From the IMG/VR virus record IMGVR_UViG_3300008464_000003, positions 1 to 36,835 of that record: a stretch of DNA of 36,835 bases. One strand, given 5' to 3'. A model generated the notes under the pieces. The model saw only the letters and a program-made list of their open reading frames with translations, did no database searches and was not told the DNA's origin. This DNA comes from a virus. Of this stretch, positions 13,079 through 36,240 are shown in pieces. Position 1 is the first letter of the stretch. Each line of letters begins with the position of its first letter. The position numbers were made by a program, and so were the translations under genes.

Positions 13079-13777
13079 ATGTTACATTTCAAATTAAGCT
13101 CAGAAGACTTCGATAAACTAAACGATGTAGAAAAAACTTTATACGCTCAAGCTGGTGATGGCTATCAGTTACAGGTAGATGGAGCTGTAGATAAAGCCAA
13201 GCTAAACGAATTCAGAGCCACTAACACTGACTTGATGAAACAACAAGAGCAGTTTAAGGGTGTTAATTTAGAAAAGTATCGTGAGCTTGAAGCGCAAGAA
13301 CTTAAATTGCGCAACAAAGAATTAATTGACAAAGGTGAGTTTGATACATTACTTGCAGAAAATACAGCCAGCTTACATGCTGACTATAAAGGTCAAATTT
13401 CTAATCTAAACGATCAACTCAATAGTAATACAGGCCAATATAATAACCTTGTATCGAAGTATGAAATCGAAGGCGCAGCAACTAAAGCTTTTGCCACTCA
13501 TAAAATCAACCCTGATGCTTATGACGGTGTAATGGCTCAAATCAAATCTAAGTTTAGTATTGATAACGGCTTAGTGGTCGCTAAAGATGGTGATAGTATT
13601 CTTGCTGGTGCTGATGGTAACTTAACTGTTAGCGAGTTCGTAGCAAGTCAACCTGAAATATTTAAGATTCAAAGTAACGGCGGCAAAGCTACCGGCAGTG
13701 AAAGTAAAGGTGGTATGCAACAAGGTACGTCTAGCCAAGATAAAATCAAGTCTGGTTTAGCGGCTAGAATGGCTTAG
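13079..13777 (+). CDS. capsid scaffolding protein
   Basis: A 232-residue protein just before the major capsid gene. It is mostly charged helices (residues 45-130: FRATNTDLMKQQEQFKGV, ENTASLHADYKGQISNLND), then a small domain with GDSILAGADGNLTVSEFVA, and a C-terminal basic region (QDKIKSGLAARMA) that would contact the coat protein. Scaffolds guide prohead assembly and then leave or are degraded. Ribosome site AGAGG is 7 bases upstream. Confidence 0.85.
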   Translation: MLHFKLSSEDFDKLNDVEKTLYAQAGDGYQLQVDGAVDKAKLNEFRATNTDLMKQQEQFKGVNLEKYRELEAQELKLRNKELIDKGEFDTLLAENTASLHADYKGQISNLNDQLNSNTGQYNNLVSKYEIEGAATKAFATHKINPDAYDGVMAQIKSKFSIDNGLVVAKDGDSILAGADGNLTVSEFVASQPEIFKIQSNGGKATGSESKGGMQQGTSSQDKIKSGLAARMA

Positions 13778-24842: not shown

Positions 24843-27098
24843 ATGAAAGCATACCACGGTACAGCGATATTAAAGTTTGACGATGGAATCACAGGAAATT
24901 CAGCCAGTGGTGCATTAGTCACTGTGAGAATTAACTCAACGCAAGCGCTAGCAACTCTCTTTGATGTAGATGATATTGCAACAGCAAATCCATTAACGGC
25001 AGACTCAAATGGTAATTATTCATTTAAGGCTGCTGATAACATATACGACATAATAATTAGCGAGGGTATTGGTGACGAGGTAAAGCTTGAAAAGGTAGAA
25101 GTTGCAGAGATACCAACAGCACCTATTTTAATAAACGACCTGTCACAAATTTATGATTTTGAAACTGTCACAGAAATGACAGCAGCAGCAATAGACTTTC
25201 CTGTTAAAAAAGTCATTCGTGCATTAGATCGAGGGTTATTTACCGTTGTACTTACTTCAGGTGTAACACCGAATAACGACAATATAATTCAATCTTCAAG
25301 TGTGCCAGCAAATTCTTACAAGCAAAAAGAAAACTCAGAATATATAAACGTTCTTGAATCTGATAACGAGCGCTTACATCGTGGCGAGAATGGCGCAATT
25401 GTATTTATCTTTGATGATAATAAAAGGACAGTTTTTGATAACGGCTTGCCAGTGTTTCAGGCTCAAGGCGAAGTGGCTAACATGGCATTAATTGCAGATC
25501 GCTTAATTGTTCGTGAGCCATGGGATGCTGCAACGGCCAGCTTAGCTGATTGGTTATTTGCTCAAGATTCAGGCTGGGAAGCTATTTCTCACGGTTACTA
25601 TATCTCTACAGTTTTCAACTCTGGTTTAGATTTAGCTGTTGGCGAGGAAGAATTGCAACAATCTTTCAATTATCTTAATGCTGTAGGCTTAAAGGTTAAA
25701 CAGTTTGTTGCACCTTCAAGCACTTTAGATAGCAAATTCTTACCGAAAGTTGGCGAGATTTACAGCGGCGCTCACATTGGTTCAAACACTTCTGATCCAG
25801 CAGTTGCCACACCGAACAACGGCAATGACGCTTATGATCTTAGACGTGTATCATTAGAAGAAAATTTAACTAGTGATGTGTTATTTAATGCTTTTGTTGA
25901 TTACTGTAAAGCTAACAACACATTAGGCGTGGTTTATGCTCATGAAGTTGATGGTGTTTTTGGCTCAGTGCCATTAACAACCGCCCGTTTAAATTCGCAC
26001 ATTGATTACTGTCAATCTGAAAACGTTGATATATTAACTGTTAGCGATGCGTTACAGCGTTACAACACAAACACAGTTAGAAACGAATTTTTAGGCGGTG
26101 AAGCTCCAGAAGAAATATCAGCGTTTAAAATTAAGAATAGTAATTTACTATCAGGCTCAGGCTTTAACGATGATTTAACCGCTTCATGGGTGTTTGCTGC
26201 CGGTACAGTTGGCGCTACAAGTCGTGTTGATGGTGCGAATATTGCTGGTCAGTTCGTGTTTGAAATTGGCGGAGGTGCTGGTAGTGGTACGACTCAACTT
26301 AGTCAAATAGCAACACTACCAACTAGTAAAACTTCACTACCTATTTTTGGATCAGTATTTGCTGGAAGGGTTAGCGGCACATTAGACGATCAAGATTTAA
26401 TTATTGATATCGTTTATCGCAGGTTAGGCGCTCCAATCGCTAACGGCACTAAAACATTAACATTCCCGTTAACCAATGTCATGACAGAATATAGCCTTGA
26501 TGACTTTATCAAGTTCGATACTGTTGCCGAAGAAATCCAATTAGTTATTAAAGTTGCCAATAATAACCCTGGCCAAGCTGTAGATATTGCCATTCAAAAA
26601 CCGAACTTAGGCTTTGACGATGGCGCATGGTTCGCTGCTGACAATAAAACTTATGTTAGAAGCCGTAGGACCACAACACAAGGCGGCGTAACAAGTGCCG
26701 GCGCTGTTGTTGCATTTGCCACTACAGCAGAGGACAGGCTCGGAGAGTATGACGATGCAGGACTGTTTACAGCATCAAGGACAGGAACATTAACCGTAAA
26801 TGCTAGTGTAATGATTAACGACCTTGGTTTTGCTTATGATATTACTAAGCTACTACTTGATATACGAAAAAATACAACCGCAGTTGTTAGAGGTAGCACT
26901 CTAATAGATATTGCAACAGCAGTAGCAGGCGGGGCTAGTGTTGCAGGTAGTAGATTTTCTGAGCCTGAAGTTGCTGTGTCAGCTTCTATTGATGTAGTTG
27001 CCGGTGATACTATTGATATATTCATTAGTCATAACGGCACAACCACAATGATATTAGATCCTAATGATAATGCAACTTGGTTAACAATATCAGCATAA
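24843..27098 (+). CDS. tail fibre with polysaccharide deacetylase-like domain
   Basis: A 751-residue fibre. The N-terminal about 130 residues would attach to the tail. Residues 183-410 look like a NodB/CE4 domain: AIVFIFDDNKRT (D191, D192) and SHGYY (H250), with later AHEVDG. The second His of the usual HxxxH is Ile254, so metal binding may be altered. Residues 430-610 fit a carbohydrate-binding sandwich, and the C-terminal 140 residues a C1q/TNF-like trimer domain (LGEYDDAGLFTASRTGTLTV). It probably modifies or binds acetylated surface glycans of the host. Confidence 0.8.
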   Translation: MKAYHGTAILKFDDGITGNSASGALVTVRINSTQALATLFDVDDIATANPLTADSNGNYSFKAADNIYDIIISEGIGDEVKLEKVEVAEIPTAPILINDLSQIYDFETVTEMTAAAIDFPVKKVIRALDRGLFTVVLTSGVTPNNDNIIQSSSVPANSYKQKENSEYINVLESDNERLHRGENGAIVFIFDDNKRTVFDNGLPVFQAQGEVANMALIADRLIVREPWDAATASLADWLFAQDSGWEAISHGYYISTVFNSGLDLAVGEEELQQSFNYLNAVGLKVKQFVAPSSTLDSKFLPKVGEIYSGAHIGSNTSDPAVATPNNGNDAYDLRRVSLEENLTSDVLFNAFVDYCKANNTLGVVYAHEVDGVFGSVPLTTARLNSHIDYCQSENVDILTVSDALQRYNTNTVRNEFLGGEAPEEISAFKIKNSNLLSGSGFNDDLTASWVFAAGTVGATSRVDGANIAGQFVFEIGGGAGSGTTQLSQIATLPTSKTSLPIFGSVFAGRVSGTLDDQDLIIDIVYRRLGAPIANGTKTLTFPLTNVMTEYSLDDFIKFDTVAEEIQLVIKVANNNPGQAVDIAIQKPNLGFDDGAWFAADNKTYVRSRRTTTQGGVTSAGAVVAFATTAEDRLGEYDDAGLFTASRTGTLTVNASVMINDLGFAYDITKLLLDIRKNTTAVVRGSTLIDIATAVAGGASVAGSRFSEPEVAVSASIDVVAGDTIDIFISHNGTTTMILDPNDNATWLTISA

Positions 27099-27132: not shown

Positions 27133-27471
27133 GCTATAAACCATCTCATACAGTAACTCGCTACCATAATCACCTGTAGCAACGGGCCAATTAATCTCAT
27201 TATCGTAAACCAAGCCATCTTTTAATAATACAGCGTGTGGTCCGTACCATCGTTTCGTGTACATCACCTTGCCGCCTATTTGAAGTTGCAGAGTAAAAGC
27301 GAAATCTTCACAGTCACCCGCAAAAGGCTTATCGATACTATCAAACCTATTCCATAAACCTTCGTGGCTATCTGCTTTATAAGTGAAATTACTCAGCGCC
27401 TTATGTAACATCTGAGTATCTTCAGGTATCGCACTACAGCCAATTAATAGGATGATCAATAAGTATTTCAT
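27118..27471 (-). CDS. lipoprotein with a Cys-His-Asp/Asn peptidase-like arrangement
   Basis: A 117-residue protein. I prefer ATG at 27471 (AGGA eight bases upstream); a start at 27480 adds three residues. MKYLLIILLIGC is a lipoprotein signal with C12 as the lipidated residue. Then AGDCEDFAFTLQLQIGG (C54) and YGPHAVLLKDGLVYDNE (H79, D90 or N91) give the Cys, His, Asp/Asn order of transglutaminase-like or papain-like enzymes. It would sit in the host envelope. Possible roles are a wall or protein hydrolase, or exclusion of other phages. It overlaps the upstream gene by four bases. Confidence 0.65.
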   Translation of the reverse strand: MKYLLIILLIGCSAIPEDTQMLHKALSNFTYKADSHEGLWNRFDSIDKPFAGDCEDFAFTLQLQIGGKVMYTKRWYGPHAVLLKDGLVYDNEINWPVATGDYGSELLYEMVYSKKPY

Positions 27472-27905
27472 TTTGAGCATCCTAGCCAGCCAAAGTAAGC
27501 CGCACTTCTAGTGTCTTCATTGCTGCGACCTTTCCACCCTGTAACCTTTTCAAATTGCGCCTTGTCCTTTTTCCACATCTTAGATATTTTATGCTTAACA
27601 ACTGGTAACTCCCACCACTCAGCCAACCTCTCCAACTCAACCTGTGACTGCTGAACCATGCCTAGACGTCTGGCTATGGACTGTTGAACGCTGACATTAT
27701 TTCCCTTTCTGAATATGGCGTTATTAGCGCAAACATCTTCAACATGAAACTCAACAGTTAGCCTTTCTTCTGTACTCATCTCAAACAATAGATTGTGAAT
27801 ATCAAAAAGCTCAAAGCAGTCTAGCTCAGTTATTTTTTTATCCTTGTAGACTGCCACGCCATGCTTTTTACTATCTGGGTCAATACCAATAATTATTTTA
27901 CTCAT
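27468..27905 (-). CDS. RuvC-like Holliday junction resolvase (RNase H fold)
   Basis: A 145-residue protein. IIIGIDPDSKKHGVAVY at residues 4-20 gives the first acidic strand (D9, D11). VEFHVEDVC gives a second acidic site (E52, E56, D57), and RSNEDTRSAAYFGWLG a C-terminal acidic helix (E130, D131). This order is that of RuvC and related phage resolvases, which cut branched DNA before packaging. Overlaps the Ref-like gene upstream by four bases. Confidence 0.8.
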   Translation of the reverse strand: MSKIIIGIDPDSKKHGVAVYKDKKITELDCFELFDIHNLLFEMSTEERLTVEFHVEDVCANNAIFRKGNNVSVQQSIARRLGMVQQSQVELERLAEWWELPVVKHKISKMWKKDKAQFEKVTGWKGRSNEDTRSAAYFGWLGCSK

Positions 27906-28819: not shown

Positions 28820-28956
28820 TTGCAAAACCCTTTTAAATACTCTTTATAATCTGGTTTTAGCTTCTTAGCTGCTGCCATATCTTTTTTAGCGTCACCAGTA
28901 GGGGTAACGCCTTTTCGCTCTAATAGTTCGCGTATTGCCTTACTGGTGGTAGTCAT
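28816..28956 (-). CDS. 46-residue hypothetical protein
   Basis: ATG at 28956 encodes MTTTSKAIRELLERKGVTPT then a Lys-rich helical half ending EYLKGFCK. It overlaps the methyltransferase stop by four bases at its start and the NinB-like gene at its end. AAGGG precedes the ATG. Soluble and basic; function unknown. Confidence 0.65.
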   Translation of the reverse strand: MTTTSKAIRELLERKGVTPTGDAKKDMAAAKKLKPDYKEYLKGFCK

Positions 28957-29810
28957 AATAAACCCTTAAAAATATGAGTGACTGTCCTACATTCCCACCC
29001 GTTACCTATCATTTCATAAGCCTGAGTATTGCTAACTGATTTCGTGTAACCATCTGGTAGGCCGTGGCATCTTTCACATTCAACTACTGTAGGGTATCTA
29101 ATTCCTTTGTGATCAAGTACACCAAAAAACCTTTGTGAGGAATACTTCTTATACATTGTAGCTTCAAGCATTTGCATTTTACCTGAGTTAGTAAATACCT
29201 TTAAATCCTTGCCTTTCCTTTTTGCGTGATTAGATAACCAGTTAAAAGCCGCTTCTGAGTAATAAAAATTATCTGCAGCATTCCATTCCCTTATATCTCC
29301 AAACGATGATTTGACAGGTGTTATTTCTTCGAACTCAATGTTAGTCCAGTAGTTACGCTTCCTATCGACAGGGGCTATCTGGTTGCTTTCTATCTTGTGA
29401 GGCTTAACCCCAAACAGTTCATTTATGAAGTTTTCATACTTAGCTTTCATAAAGACGTTTTCAAAAAAGAATTTTACACCAGGGTTTAATGACTTTACAT
29501 GCTCGAATATCTCTATCAACACTAAAACAAGAGCGCCTCTCGGGTCATCTAGTCCGCCTTGATCTCCAGAAAAAGACCATGCCTGACAAGGAAAACCAGC
29601 CATAATTAAATCAATGCTTGCCCAATCAATAAGCCACTCTCGCCAGTTATTAATATCACCTAAGTTAATTGCCTTGGGGAAGTTATCATCTGCCACCTGT
29701 ATAGCGTACTTATTTATATCTGATGCGTAATACTTATTAACCTTAATGCCTGCTTGTTGTAGGCAGTAAGCACCGCACCGCATACCATCAAATAAACTCA
29801 ATACATTCAT
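28953..29810 (-). CDS. C5-cytosine DNA methyltransferase
   Basis: A 285-residue enzyme. I prefer ATG 29810 (MNVLSLFDGMRCG; GGAGAG seven bases upstream) to one at 29825. Motif I is LFDGMRCGAY, motif IV GFPCQAWSF (catalytic Cys at about 75), motif VI FFENV (Glu at about 117), motif VIII APVDRKRNYW, and motifs IX-X SNTQAYEMIGNGW. It transfers methyl groups from SAM to cytosine C5. No restriction enzyme lies nearby, so it probably protects phage DNA from host restriction or alters packaging or expression. Target sequence unknown. Confidence 0.93.
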   Translation of the reverse strand: MNVLSLFDGMRCGAYCLQQAGIKVNKYYASDINKYAIQVADDNFPKAINLGDINNWREWLIDWASIDLIMAGFPCQAWSFSGDQGGLDDPRGALVLVLIEIFEHVKSLNPGVKFFFENVFMKAKYENFINELFGVKPHKIESNQIAPVDRKRNYWTNIEFEEITPVKSSFGDIREWNAADNFYYSEAAFNWLSNHAKRKGKDLKVFTNSGKMQMLEATMYKKYSSQRFFGVLDHKGIRYPTVVECERCHGLPDGYTKSVSNTQAYEMIGNGWECRTVTHIFKGLL

Positions 29811-29859
29811 AATCATTCTCTCCATTAATTAAATTCAAACTAACTATAACCTATAAACC

Positions 29860-32547: not shown

Positions 32548-33270
32548 ATGAAATGGTTTAAGCATGATACTGATGCAAACATGGACGCTAAACTTCAAGA
32601 GGTAATGCTTGATTACGGTTTAGAGGGTTATGGGTTGTATTGGTATTGCATAGAGTTAATAGCGCAAAGAGTTAACGGTGATAACTTAACATTTGAGCTT
32701 GAGCATGATTGCAGAATCATAGCCAGAAATACAGGCTCAACACCTCAGAAAGTTGAGCAGATGATGAAGTCATTTATTAACTTAGGTTTATTAAATGCAG
32801 ATAACGGGCATGTTTTTTGTTTGAAACTAGCCTCTCGTTGTGATGACTTTACAGCAAAGGCAGTTAGACGGAATGGAGTAAAACCCGTTACAAATCAAGA
32901 GGTCGGAGTATGTCCGAGTTTGTCGGTTTTTGTCCCTCTAGAAGAAGAAGTAAGAAATAGAAGTAAGAAGAAGAGTATAGATATATGTCAACTTGTCGTT
33001 GACGAGTTCAATTCTAAGTTATCTGAATTAGGACAGGTTAAGGTTTTATCTGATAAGCGTAAAGCTTGGATTAAAGGCTCGATTAAGCAGATGGAAAAAA
33101 CAGATAATGATTTCTCTCAGATTGAAACGTGGGTAAGATATTTTAACTTTGTTTCAGAGCAAGATTTTCTTATGGGTAGAAAAGCAAATTCAGATTTCAC
33201 TGCAAGCTTTGATTTCCTGGTAAACAAAAATAACTTATTAAAAGTGGTAGAGGGAAATTATGATAATTAA
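32548..33270 (+). CDS. replication initiator-like protein (DUF4373-type N-terminus)
   Basis: A 240-residue protein. MKWFKHDTDANMDAKLQEVM followed by YGLEGYGLYWYCIELIAQR is the Lin1244/DUF4373 pattern found in phage replication proteins, a winged-helix domain. The middle is variable (EEEVRNRSKKKS). The C-terminal half (IKQMEKTDNDFSQIETWVRY, DFTASFDFLVNKNNLLKV) resembles the helicase-loading end of DnaD-like or lambda O-like proteins. The DnaB gene overlaps its end by 11 bases. It probably recognises the phage origin and brings the helicase to it. Confidence 0.75.
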   Translation: MKWFKHDTDANMDAKLQEVMLDYGLEGYGLYWYCIELIAQRVNGDNLTFELEHDCRIIARNTGSTPQKVEQMMKSFINLGLLNADNGHVFCLKLASRCDDFTAKAVRRNGVKPVTNQEVGVCPSLSVFVPLEEEVRNRSKKKSIDICQLVVDEFNSKLSELGQVKVLSDKRKAWIKGSIKQMEKTDNDFSQIETWVRYFNFVSEQDFLMGRKANSDFTASFDFLVNKNNLLKVVEGNYDN

Positions 33271-34633
33271 CGAGCCACCAAAAAACACCGAAGTTGAACA
33301 GCAAATAATTGGCGCACTAATTAAAGATCCAACGCATTCAAACAGTAGAGAAACAATTGACAGCCTTTGTGATGATGATTTCTTTAGTATGGCTCACAGG
33401 TTAATTTTTAACGAAATAAAAACCATGAGCGAAAACAAAGAAGCTATTGACTTGGTAACTGTTGATAATAATCTTTCAAAGAAAACTGATCAATACGGTG
33501 GTTTTGTTTATCTTGCAGACTTAAACAAAAACACAACTGGTAATTACAATCTACCCGCTTACGTGGCTATTATTAAAAAATGCTCACAACTAAGAAAACT
33601 ATCAAAGATATTGTTTGATGCTGCTGAAATGATAAACCAAGGCGCTGAGCCTGTAGAAATCACAGAGATAATTGACAACGAGCTTAAAGATGCCGCTGTA
33701 AGCTCGTCAGGGGCAGAATTAAGGCATATTCAAACGGTAGAAGGTGATTGGTTAGATAGGCTACAAGATCGCATGGATAGAGGCGGTGCAATCTCTGGCT
33801 TGACTACAGGTATAGATAAGCTAGATGAGAGAATTAACGGCATTGGTGATGAATCTTTGGTGGTTGTTGCTGGCGCTCCTTCAATGGGTAAGACTTTATT
33901 CTGTCAAACTCTTGCGGCTAACGTGGGTGTTGATCAAAAGAAAAATGTAATGTTTTTCTCGTTGGAAATGTCAGAGATTGAATTATTTGAAAGATTCGTT
34001 TCAGGTGTGGGGAATATACCCGCTAACAATTTAAGGTCAGCTAGGCTTGGTGATGATGGTTTTGGCAAAGCAGAAACCGCGCTTGCAGCTTTAAGGCAGT
34101 CTGGCATATATATTACAGACCAGCCGAAGCAATCAGTCGGACAAATACGGGCAAAGGTTCGCAGGCATAAAGTAAAACACCCTGACTTATCAGCTATTTT
34201 TATTGATTACCTTGGCTTAATGAAATTAGGTAAAGCTGATAGGCATGATATTGCAGTTGGTAACATTACGCGCGACCTTAAAGAATTAGCTAAAGAAGTT
34301 AAAGTCCCTATTATTTTATGTGTTCAAGCAAACCGATATAAAGCACCAATGCGCCCTAATATGTCAAACCTGAAAGACTCAAGCTGTATTGAAGCTGATG
34401 CAGACTTAATTATGTTCGTACATCGTCAAGAAGTATTAGAACCCGAAACATTGTTAAAAGGTGTGACTGAATTAATCATAGCTAAAGATCGGCACAGTGA
34501 TGGTAACGGAACTGTTTACCTAGAAAAGATTAACGGGGCGTTTATACCGCTATCAGAAAATCAAGTCGCACAAATGGCGCACGAAGAAGAGAAAAGATTA
34601 AACCCAGCACCGCCAACGCGCGGAATGAAATAA
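33260..34633 (+). CDS. dnaB: replicative DNA helicase
   Basis: A 457-residue DnaB-family helicase. N-terminal domain: EVEQQIIGALIKDP and FFSMAHRLIFNEIK (residues 11-55). The linker is GLTTGIDKLDERINGI. Walker A is GAPSMGKT (205-212), followed by FFSLEMS and Walker B AIFIDYLGLMKL. The H4 region is VQANRYKAPMRPNMSNLKDS with IEADADLIMFVHR, where usual DnaB has SQLNR; Ser-Gln-Leu is replaced by Val-Gln-Ala. It unwinds DNA ahead of the phage fork. Length is typical. Confidence 0.95.
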   Translation: MIINEPPKNTEVEQQIIGALIKDPTHSNSRETIDSLCDDDFFSMAHRLIFNEIKTMSENKEAIDLVTVDNNLSKKTDQYGGFVYLADLNKNTTGNYNLPAYVAIIKKCSQLRKLSKILFDAAEMINQGAEPVEITEIIDNELKDAAVSSSGAELRHIQTVEGDWLDRLQDRMDRGGAISGLTTGIDKLDERINGIGDESLVVVAGAPSMGKTLFCQTLAANVGVDQKKNVMFFSLEMSEIELFERFVSGVGNIPANNLRSARLGDDGFGKAETALAALRQSGIYITDQPKQSVGQIRAKVRRHKVKHPDLSAIFIDYLGLMKLGKADRHDIAVGNITRDLKELAKEVKVPIILCVQANRYKAPMRPNMSNLKDSSCIEADADLIMFVHRQEVLEPETLLKGVTELIIAKDRHSDGNGTVYLEKINGAFIPLSENQVAQMAHEEEKRLNPAPPTRGMK

Positions 34634-35519: not shown

Positions 35520-35729
35520 ATGATTAAATGTGGCAAAGTTTGCCATGGAACAAAAAGCAGAGCCAAGCTTGCAATTAAGCAATTGAGAAATAAAGGTCAC
35601 AGCAGAAAGCTAAGAATTTACTTTTGTGATAATTGCGAGTGTTGGCATACAACAAGCTTTACCGCTAAGGCGATAGCTGAAATGAAAGATAAACGAATGG
35701 AGAATATAAATGACGACAATAGTCTATGA
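35520..35729 (+). CDS. small zinc-ribbon protein
   Basis: A 69-residue basic protein beginning MIKCGKVCHGTKSRAKLAIK. A CxxxC at residues 4-8 and FCDNCECWHTTS at about 35-46 form a treble-clef-like or ribbon zinc site; phage proteins with a C..C..WHlTS motif are common. It overlaps the HslV-like gene by 20 bases. It may bind nucleic acid. Confidence 0.7.
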   Translation: MIKCGKVCHGTKSRAKLAIKQLRNKGHSRKLRIYFCDNCECWHTTSFTAKAIAEMKDKRMENINDDNSL

Positions 35730-36150
35730 TCATAAAAACAAACAAGTAGCGTGTGACAGCAGAGAAACTGGTGGAGGCGTCTTATTTACAGATGAGGCAA
35801 TCAAATATAAGGTAGTCGGTGATGATGTGTGGTTTATCTGCGGCAGCAAGTCAGACGTAGCTATATTTATTGATACCTTTGAACATAACTCGCATTCGCC
35901 TGATAACGTTAACTGTGGCGGGATAGTTGTTCGTGATGGCGTCTGCTACAAAGCGTGTAACGAAGATGGAGTGTATAAGCTTGACGAACTGCCATGCAAT
36001 GAATCTTTAGGCTCTGGCGGTTGGTTGGCAATGGCTGCTGTTGATTTAGGTAAAACAGCAAGGCAAGCGGTTAAGTATGCAATGACTCGGGATTTATATA
36101 CTGGCGGTAAAGTTCATGTTTACGACATTGAAAAGGGTGAGTTTATCTAG
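35710..36150 (+). CDS. HslV/20S proteasome-like Ntn hydrolase
   Basis: A 146-residue protein resembling HslV. It starts MTTIVYDHKNKQVACDS; if Met is removed Thr2 is the N-terminal nucleophile. D16 in ACDSR and K32 or K34 in EAIKYKV occupy the places of HslV Asp17 and Lys33. Later SLGSGGWLAMAAVDLGKTAR matches the GSGG...A.AA helix region, and a TGGKVHVYDIEKGEF end matches the last strands. GGAGAA precedes the ATG. It may be a protease, or a proteasome-like shell with a new role. No HslU-like ATPase is visible in the phage, so host HslU or none would assist. Confidence 0.8.
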   Translation: MTTIVYDHKNKQVACDSRETGGGVLFTDEAIKYKVVGDDVWFICGSKSDVAIFIDTFEHNSHSPDNVNCGGIVVRDGVCYKACNEDGVYKLDELPCNESLGSGGWLAMAAVDLGKTARQAVKYAMTRDLYTGGKVHVYDIEKGEFI

Positions 36151-36219
36151 TATAGTGAGATTATAAACTTCCTTGTTCGTTCCTTGGTTATTTATACTCT
36201 CTCCTTGTTGTAAAGCCTA

Positions 36220-36240
36220 GCCTAACCGTTAGGCTTTTTT
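36220..36240 (+). terminator. rho-independent terminator of the replication operon
   Basis: GCCTAA (36220-36225), a three-base loop and TTAGGC (36229-36234) are followed by six T (36235-36240). It lies 70 bases after the HslV-like gene. The intervening bases (36151-36219) hold no gene. Confidence 0.85.

Follow-up and report, generated by a model that had tools for sequence, protein, structure and literature searches.

Miniature relatives of the proteasome subunits were described in phages of the Caudovirales by Fuchs, Alva and Lupas in 2021, who named the family PPH; its members comprise ~140 residues, have lost helix H2, lack an AAA+ partner and lie in an uninformative gene context (PMC8665760). 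The missing second helix is a feature given for both PPH and RPC, and cluster analysis put PPH in group I together with HslV and BPH (PMC8665760). HslV-like genes without HslU have also been noted in a Salmonella jumbo phage (PMC7823757). In the literature that we searched, with subscription papers mostly outside our reach, we found neither a biochemical study of PPH nor a report of peptidase activity or of an oligomer for any member. BPH, which is not listed for phages in Table 1 of PMC8665760, combines a complete active site with a ring and an exposed Thr1 and binds epoxomicin, yet it is inert on standard peptides and casein (PMC5777263), and thus an intact active site is no guarantee of activity in ordinary assays.

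We analyzed a window of 36,835 nucleotides, the IMG/VR virus record IMGVR_UViG_3300008464_000003 from position 1 to 36,835, which carries a member of this family at 35710..36150 on the plus strand. The assignment of this gene as a 146-residue proteasome-like Ntn hydrolase draws on the open reading frame, PHROG 1040, tblastn, AlphaFold2, Foldseek, HMM and tree analysis, and alignment. Its product, MTTIVYDHKNKQVACDSRETGG...LGSGGWLAMAAVD...AMTRDLYTGGKVHVYDIEKGEFI, begins with Met-Thr-Thr-Ile and consists of a single proteasome-like domain, close to the PPH norm of ~140 residues. PHROG 1040, termed 'peptidase HslV family', covers the whole protein (E 2e-27). A tblastn search returned 58 phage records, 45 of them covering at least 80% of the query; the existing annotation of many reads proteasome subunit beta, HslV family peptidase or nucleophile aminohydrolase. 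Identity between the window protein and its close uncultivated relatives lies at 43-83%. A family profile built from 24 members matched solved 20S beta subunits (E 1.5e-12) with the residues of the active site in register, one side of this comparison being a single sequence. Pfam PF00227 scored under its cut-off (E 0.015), and no HslV model was among the matches listed in an NCBIfam search. Taken together, the PHROG match, the 45 phage records with high coverage and the 20S beta profile show that the reading frame is real and that its likeness to the proteasome family goes far beyond chance. Against the 83%-identical relative, the gene is under strong purifying selection (dN 0.11, dS ~2.8, the latter near saturation). 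Within the close subfamily, prophage copies in hosts were seen on one genome contig only, from a Robiginitomaculum MAG.

To describe the putative active site, conservation was counted across 96 distinct sequences including the window protein, with denominators giving the sequences that have a residue at the position; because the set is skewed to relatives of one Pseudomonas-phage query, these counts are of sequences and not of independent events. The codon of Thr2 (35713..35715, plus strand, as are all active-site positions given here) aligns with 20S beta Thr1 and would specify the catalytic Thr1 after Met removal, a propeptide being absent. All 94 sequences covered have Thr at this position, directly preceded by Met in 92 of them. 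Asp16-Ser17-Arg18 (35755..35763) corresponds to proteasome Asp17 and Arg19 (Asp in 95/96, Arg in 92/96), whereas Lys32 (35803..35805) and Gly45 (35842..35844), equivalent to Lys33 and the oxyanion-hole Gly47, are retained in 96 of 96. The GSGG motif (residues 101-104; 36010..36021) places Ser102 at the position of proteasome Ser129, with Ser in 89/95 and N, C or T in the others. The earlier note had singled out the exposable Thr in an M-T-T-I-V start, an Asp and a Lys near HslV Asp17 and Lys33, and GSGG followed by an Ala-rich helix, and each of these agrees with the alignment or, for the helix, with the predicted structure. It had overlooked the C-terminal RDxY(S/T)GG motif, which reads RDLYTGG in the window protein (residues 127-133; 36088..36108), aligns with HRDSYSGG of 20S beta8 and covers 20S beta Asp166, Ser169 and Gly170. 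Asp is found at the 166 position in 95/95 sequences, Ser or Thr at the 169 position in 94/94, and Gly170 and Gly171 in 94/94; where 20S has Ser169, the window protein carries Thr131 followed by Gly-Gly. As judged by alignment, the proteasome active-site set is complete, comprising Thr2, Asp16, Arg18, Lys32, Gly45, Ser102, Asp128 and Thr131-Gly-Gly, a set shared with beta5 and beta8 of the 20S including Ser129, Asp166, Ser169 and Gly170. The near-invariance of the whole site in 96 relatives speaks for a use of its catalytic activity by phages. In a Vibrio breoganii phage PPH (L032, 6001-6441), Glu replaces the catalytic Asp (IAYESR), and this protein possibly has a divergent function.

The AlphaFold2 model, computed with 29 sequences, reached a mean pLDDT of 95.5 and a pTM of 0.88 and has the predicted proteasome/HslV Ntn-hydrolase fold. 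Its sole helices span residues 47-56, 104-112 and 117-126, the first being followed by strands, and they correspond to H1, H3 and H4; the second of them is the Ala-rich helix that follows GSGG, and H2 and H5 are absent. When the model was compared with the PDB by Foldseek, all 50 of the 50 best matches listed were proteasome-family chains (20S, HslV or BPH), with TM scores, normalized by query length, of up to 0.73 for 20S beta subunits, 0.66 for T. maritima HslV and 0.65 for BPH (5ovs). Neither of the two outcomes that, according to the earlier note, would have spoken against its reading, a fold other than alpha-beta-beta-alpha or the lack of an Ntn hydrolase match in profile searches, was seen. 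Compared to solved 20S beta5 and beta8, the phage-encoded protein is ~55 residues shorter and lacks the propeptide and H2, and with 146 residues and neither H2 nor H5 it does not have the full-length 20S beta fold of ~200 residues with H1-H5. BPH is likewise a group I homolog devoid of propeptide and partner ATPase, but it differs from the window protein by its H2 and its long acidic pore loop. A longer relative from Vibrio phage 424E50-1 (L037, 4001-4867), a likely example of RPC, has a homologous N-terminal domain and a C-terminal extension that is absent from the window protein; its gene lies near PhoH and ribonucleotide reductase genes.

In proteasomes, H3 and H4 form inter-ring contacts, and both helices are retained in the model. 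Their retention weighs against a rival reading that we consider unlikely, in which the protein would be a monomer or small oligomer that, in the manner of connectase, acts with high specificity as a peptidase or transpeptidase on one phage or host protein instead of breaking down many. The model also has no helix before residue 47 and hence no two-helix S3-S4 insertion of the connectase type. Nevertheless, the small size and the loss of H2 fit this reading, and connectase, a protein ligase of proteasome fold, illustrates that a protein of this fold can lose helices and turn into a specific monomer (PMC8665760). It is further favored by the variable gene context of the relatives, whose neighbors may be the NinG region, head genes or ribonucleotide reductase/PhoH, speaking for the lack of a shared degradation partner. 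As these neighbors include no consistent partner, we rejected shared gene neighborhood as a clue to function.

We next asked where the window protein stands with respect to HslV, as the earlier note had called it an HslV/proteasome-like Ntn hydrolase. Membership in the proteasome/HslV superfamily holds, and the protein is a phage-encoded Ntn hydrolase of that superfamily; the HslV-type label does not. The two share the proteasome fold, an N-terminal Thr after Met removal, the Asp and Lys positions and GSGG. However, the window protein is 30 residues shorter than E. coli HslV and lacks H2, carries RDxY(S/T)GG in place of the HslV C-terminal motif, and has no HslU encoded alongside. BLASTP against E. 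coli HslV was insignificant, with no detectable pairwise similarity, and HMM scores were 189 bits for the phage relatives, 5.7 for HslV and -2.8 for Anbu, the members of the PPH HMM and of the tree having been gathered in this analysis. By hhalign, with a single sequence on one side, 20S beta8 scored 80 versus 40 for E. coli HslV. In a maximum-likelihood tree, the window protein nests inside the phage clade, apart from separate clades of HslV (95/94) and Anbu (100/99). On the basis of BLASTP, HMM score, tree and C-terminal motif, we rejected membership in HslV. PPH is not strictly one clade in this tree, as the divergent, long-branched member L035 groups with 20S beta, which is likely a long-branch artefact; since the tree holds two 20S sequences only, it leaves the origin of PPH unsettled. 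The motif and profile results, as we read them, do not contradict descent of PPH from an HslV-like ancestor.

According to these data, the window protein belongs to PPH, a family of miniature, proteasome-like Ntn hydrolases of phages whose description dates from 2021. It shares with PHROG 1040 members the length of ~140 residues, the proteasome core fold without H2, the absence of a propeptide, the retained Thr1/Asp17/Lys33 and Gly47 positions, an origin in tailed phages and the absence of an AAA+ partner. Nothing decisive sets it apart from other PPH; it comes from an uncultivated phage, and its gene closes a replication operon.

The absence of a partner ATPase, as the earlier note had put it, was borne out by model searches of this genome: AAA_2 gave no match, and the only AAA match was the DnaB helicase, below cut-off. 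No ClpX/HslU-type AAA+ match was seen in this genome or in the records of six relatives, and we rejected a partner unfoldase in the phage on the AAA_2 and AAA results. A phage protein without its own unfoldase could instead bind host HslU or mix into host HslV rings as a decoy, disabling or redirecting HslVU. A PF00227 protein is present in 114 of 120 sampled Pseudomonadota genomes, and the best PF00227 loci examined are nearly all HslV-like sequences, so a host from this phylum would in many cases offer HslVU. Still, we regard the decoy as improbable. The face of HslV used for HslU docking carries H2, whose absence from the model makes competition for HslU unlikely; together with the undetectable similarity to HslV, this leaves the competition with host HslV for HslU proposed in the earlier note poorly supported. 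A decoy would have no need of the conserved, intact active site, and BPH, itself an HslV descendant, no longer interacts with HslU and did not pull it down (PMC5777263).

The PPH gene is the final gene of a replication operon, as the earlier note had recognized. Upstream in the same operon and on the same plus strand lie genes for an O-like replication initiation or helicase-loader-like protein (32548..33270; phrog_345, E 6e-27) and a DnaB-like replicative helicase (33260..34633; phrog_19, E 8e-104). Downstream, a strong intrinsic terminator (36212..36240, plus strand; 10-pair stem and T-run, -12.8 kcal/mol, z -4.3) ends the operon, and the next genes are in opposite orientation. The start of the PPH frame overlaps the 3' end of the preceding small frame by 20 bases (35710-35729), and a plausible GGAGAA-like ribosome-binding site (35698..35703, plus strand), read from the sequence, lies within the end of that upstream frame. 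The small frame (35520-35729) encodes a 69-residue protein with CxxC-type cysteines (CDNCECWH); in one relative (L005), an ORF 38% identical to it is located directly upstream of the PPH gene. No convincing promoter was detected in the operon, promoter-like matches being fewer than in shuffles.

An identical direct repeat of 114 bases occupies both contig ends (1-114 and 36722-36835), suggesting that the genome is complete at ~36.7 kb and circularised or terminally redundant. The window contains terminase, portal, scaffold, capsid, tape measure, tail and tail fibre genes. Following the tail fibre gene is an ORF of 751 residues (24843-27098) with no PHROG match, and a Holliday junction resolvase gene (27468-27905) lies near a C-5 cytosine DNA methyltransferase gene on the minus strand (28953-29825; PF00145, E 5e-30). 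This gene complement bears on a further rival reading, in which the protein would be catalytically silent and serve the capsid as a scaffold or as a structural component; the earlier note had raised reuse as a scaffold. Such reuse would suit the Vibrio breoganii phages, in which the gene (L032) sits between head-completion and head-closure genes. In the window, a separate head scaffolding gene is present at 13079-13777, the PPH gene sits with replication genes, and context differs among phages; with the catalytic residues near-invariant as well, we consider this reading very improbable.

The protein is most likely an oligomeric, ATP-independent threonine peptidase, as far as its sequence features indicate. 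Met1 would be removed by host methionine aminopeptidase, as expected from the small second residue, which would directly free Thr2 as the N-terminal nucleophile and make a propeptide unneeded. By alignment, Thr2 would be activated by Asp16 and Lys32, Gly45 would provide the oxyanion hole, and Ser102, Asp128 and Thr131 would complete a 20S-type active site. The subunits would most likely assemble into a ring or another oligomer, which, with no unfoldase dedicated to it, would cleave proteins that are small, unfolded or recognised specifically. Its position in the operon suggests expression together with the replication genes, and hence action probably during phage takeover or genome replication. 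Counted against an oligomeric peptidase are the few relatives that depart from Ser at the Ser102 position, and without H2 a ring might be unable to form. We assign a probability of about 0.62 to this explanation as a whole, namely a miniature PPH Ntn hydrolase with Thr2 as nucleophile that forms an oligomer, cleaves without an unfoldase and is made with the replication genes. A more far-reaching version, in which an unfoldase-free miniature phage proteasome with a new, H2-less quaternary structure would selectively destroy host proteins or defence proteins while the genome is being replicated, is doubtful.

In sum, the gene is one more well-delimited PPH member, encoded in a probably complete small genome, and leaves existing knowledge unchanged. 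Given the near-invariant active site across 96 relatives, the PPH family is worth assaying.
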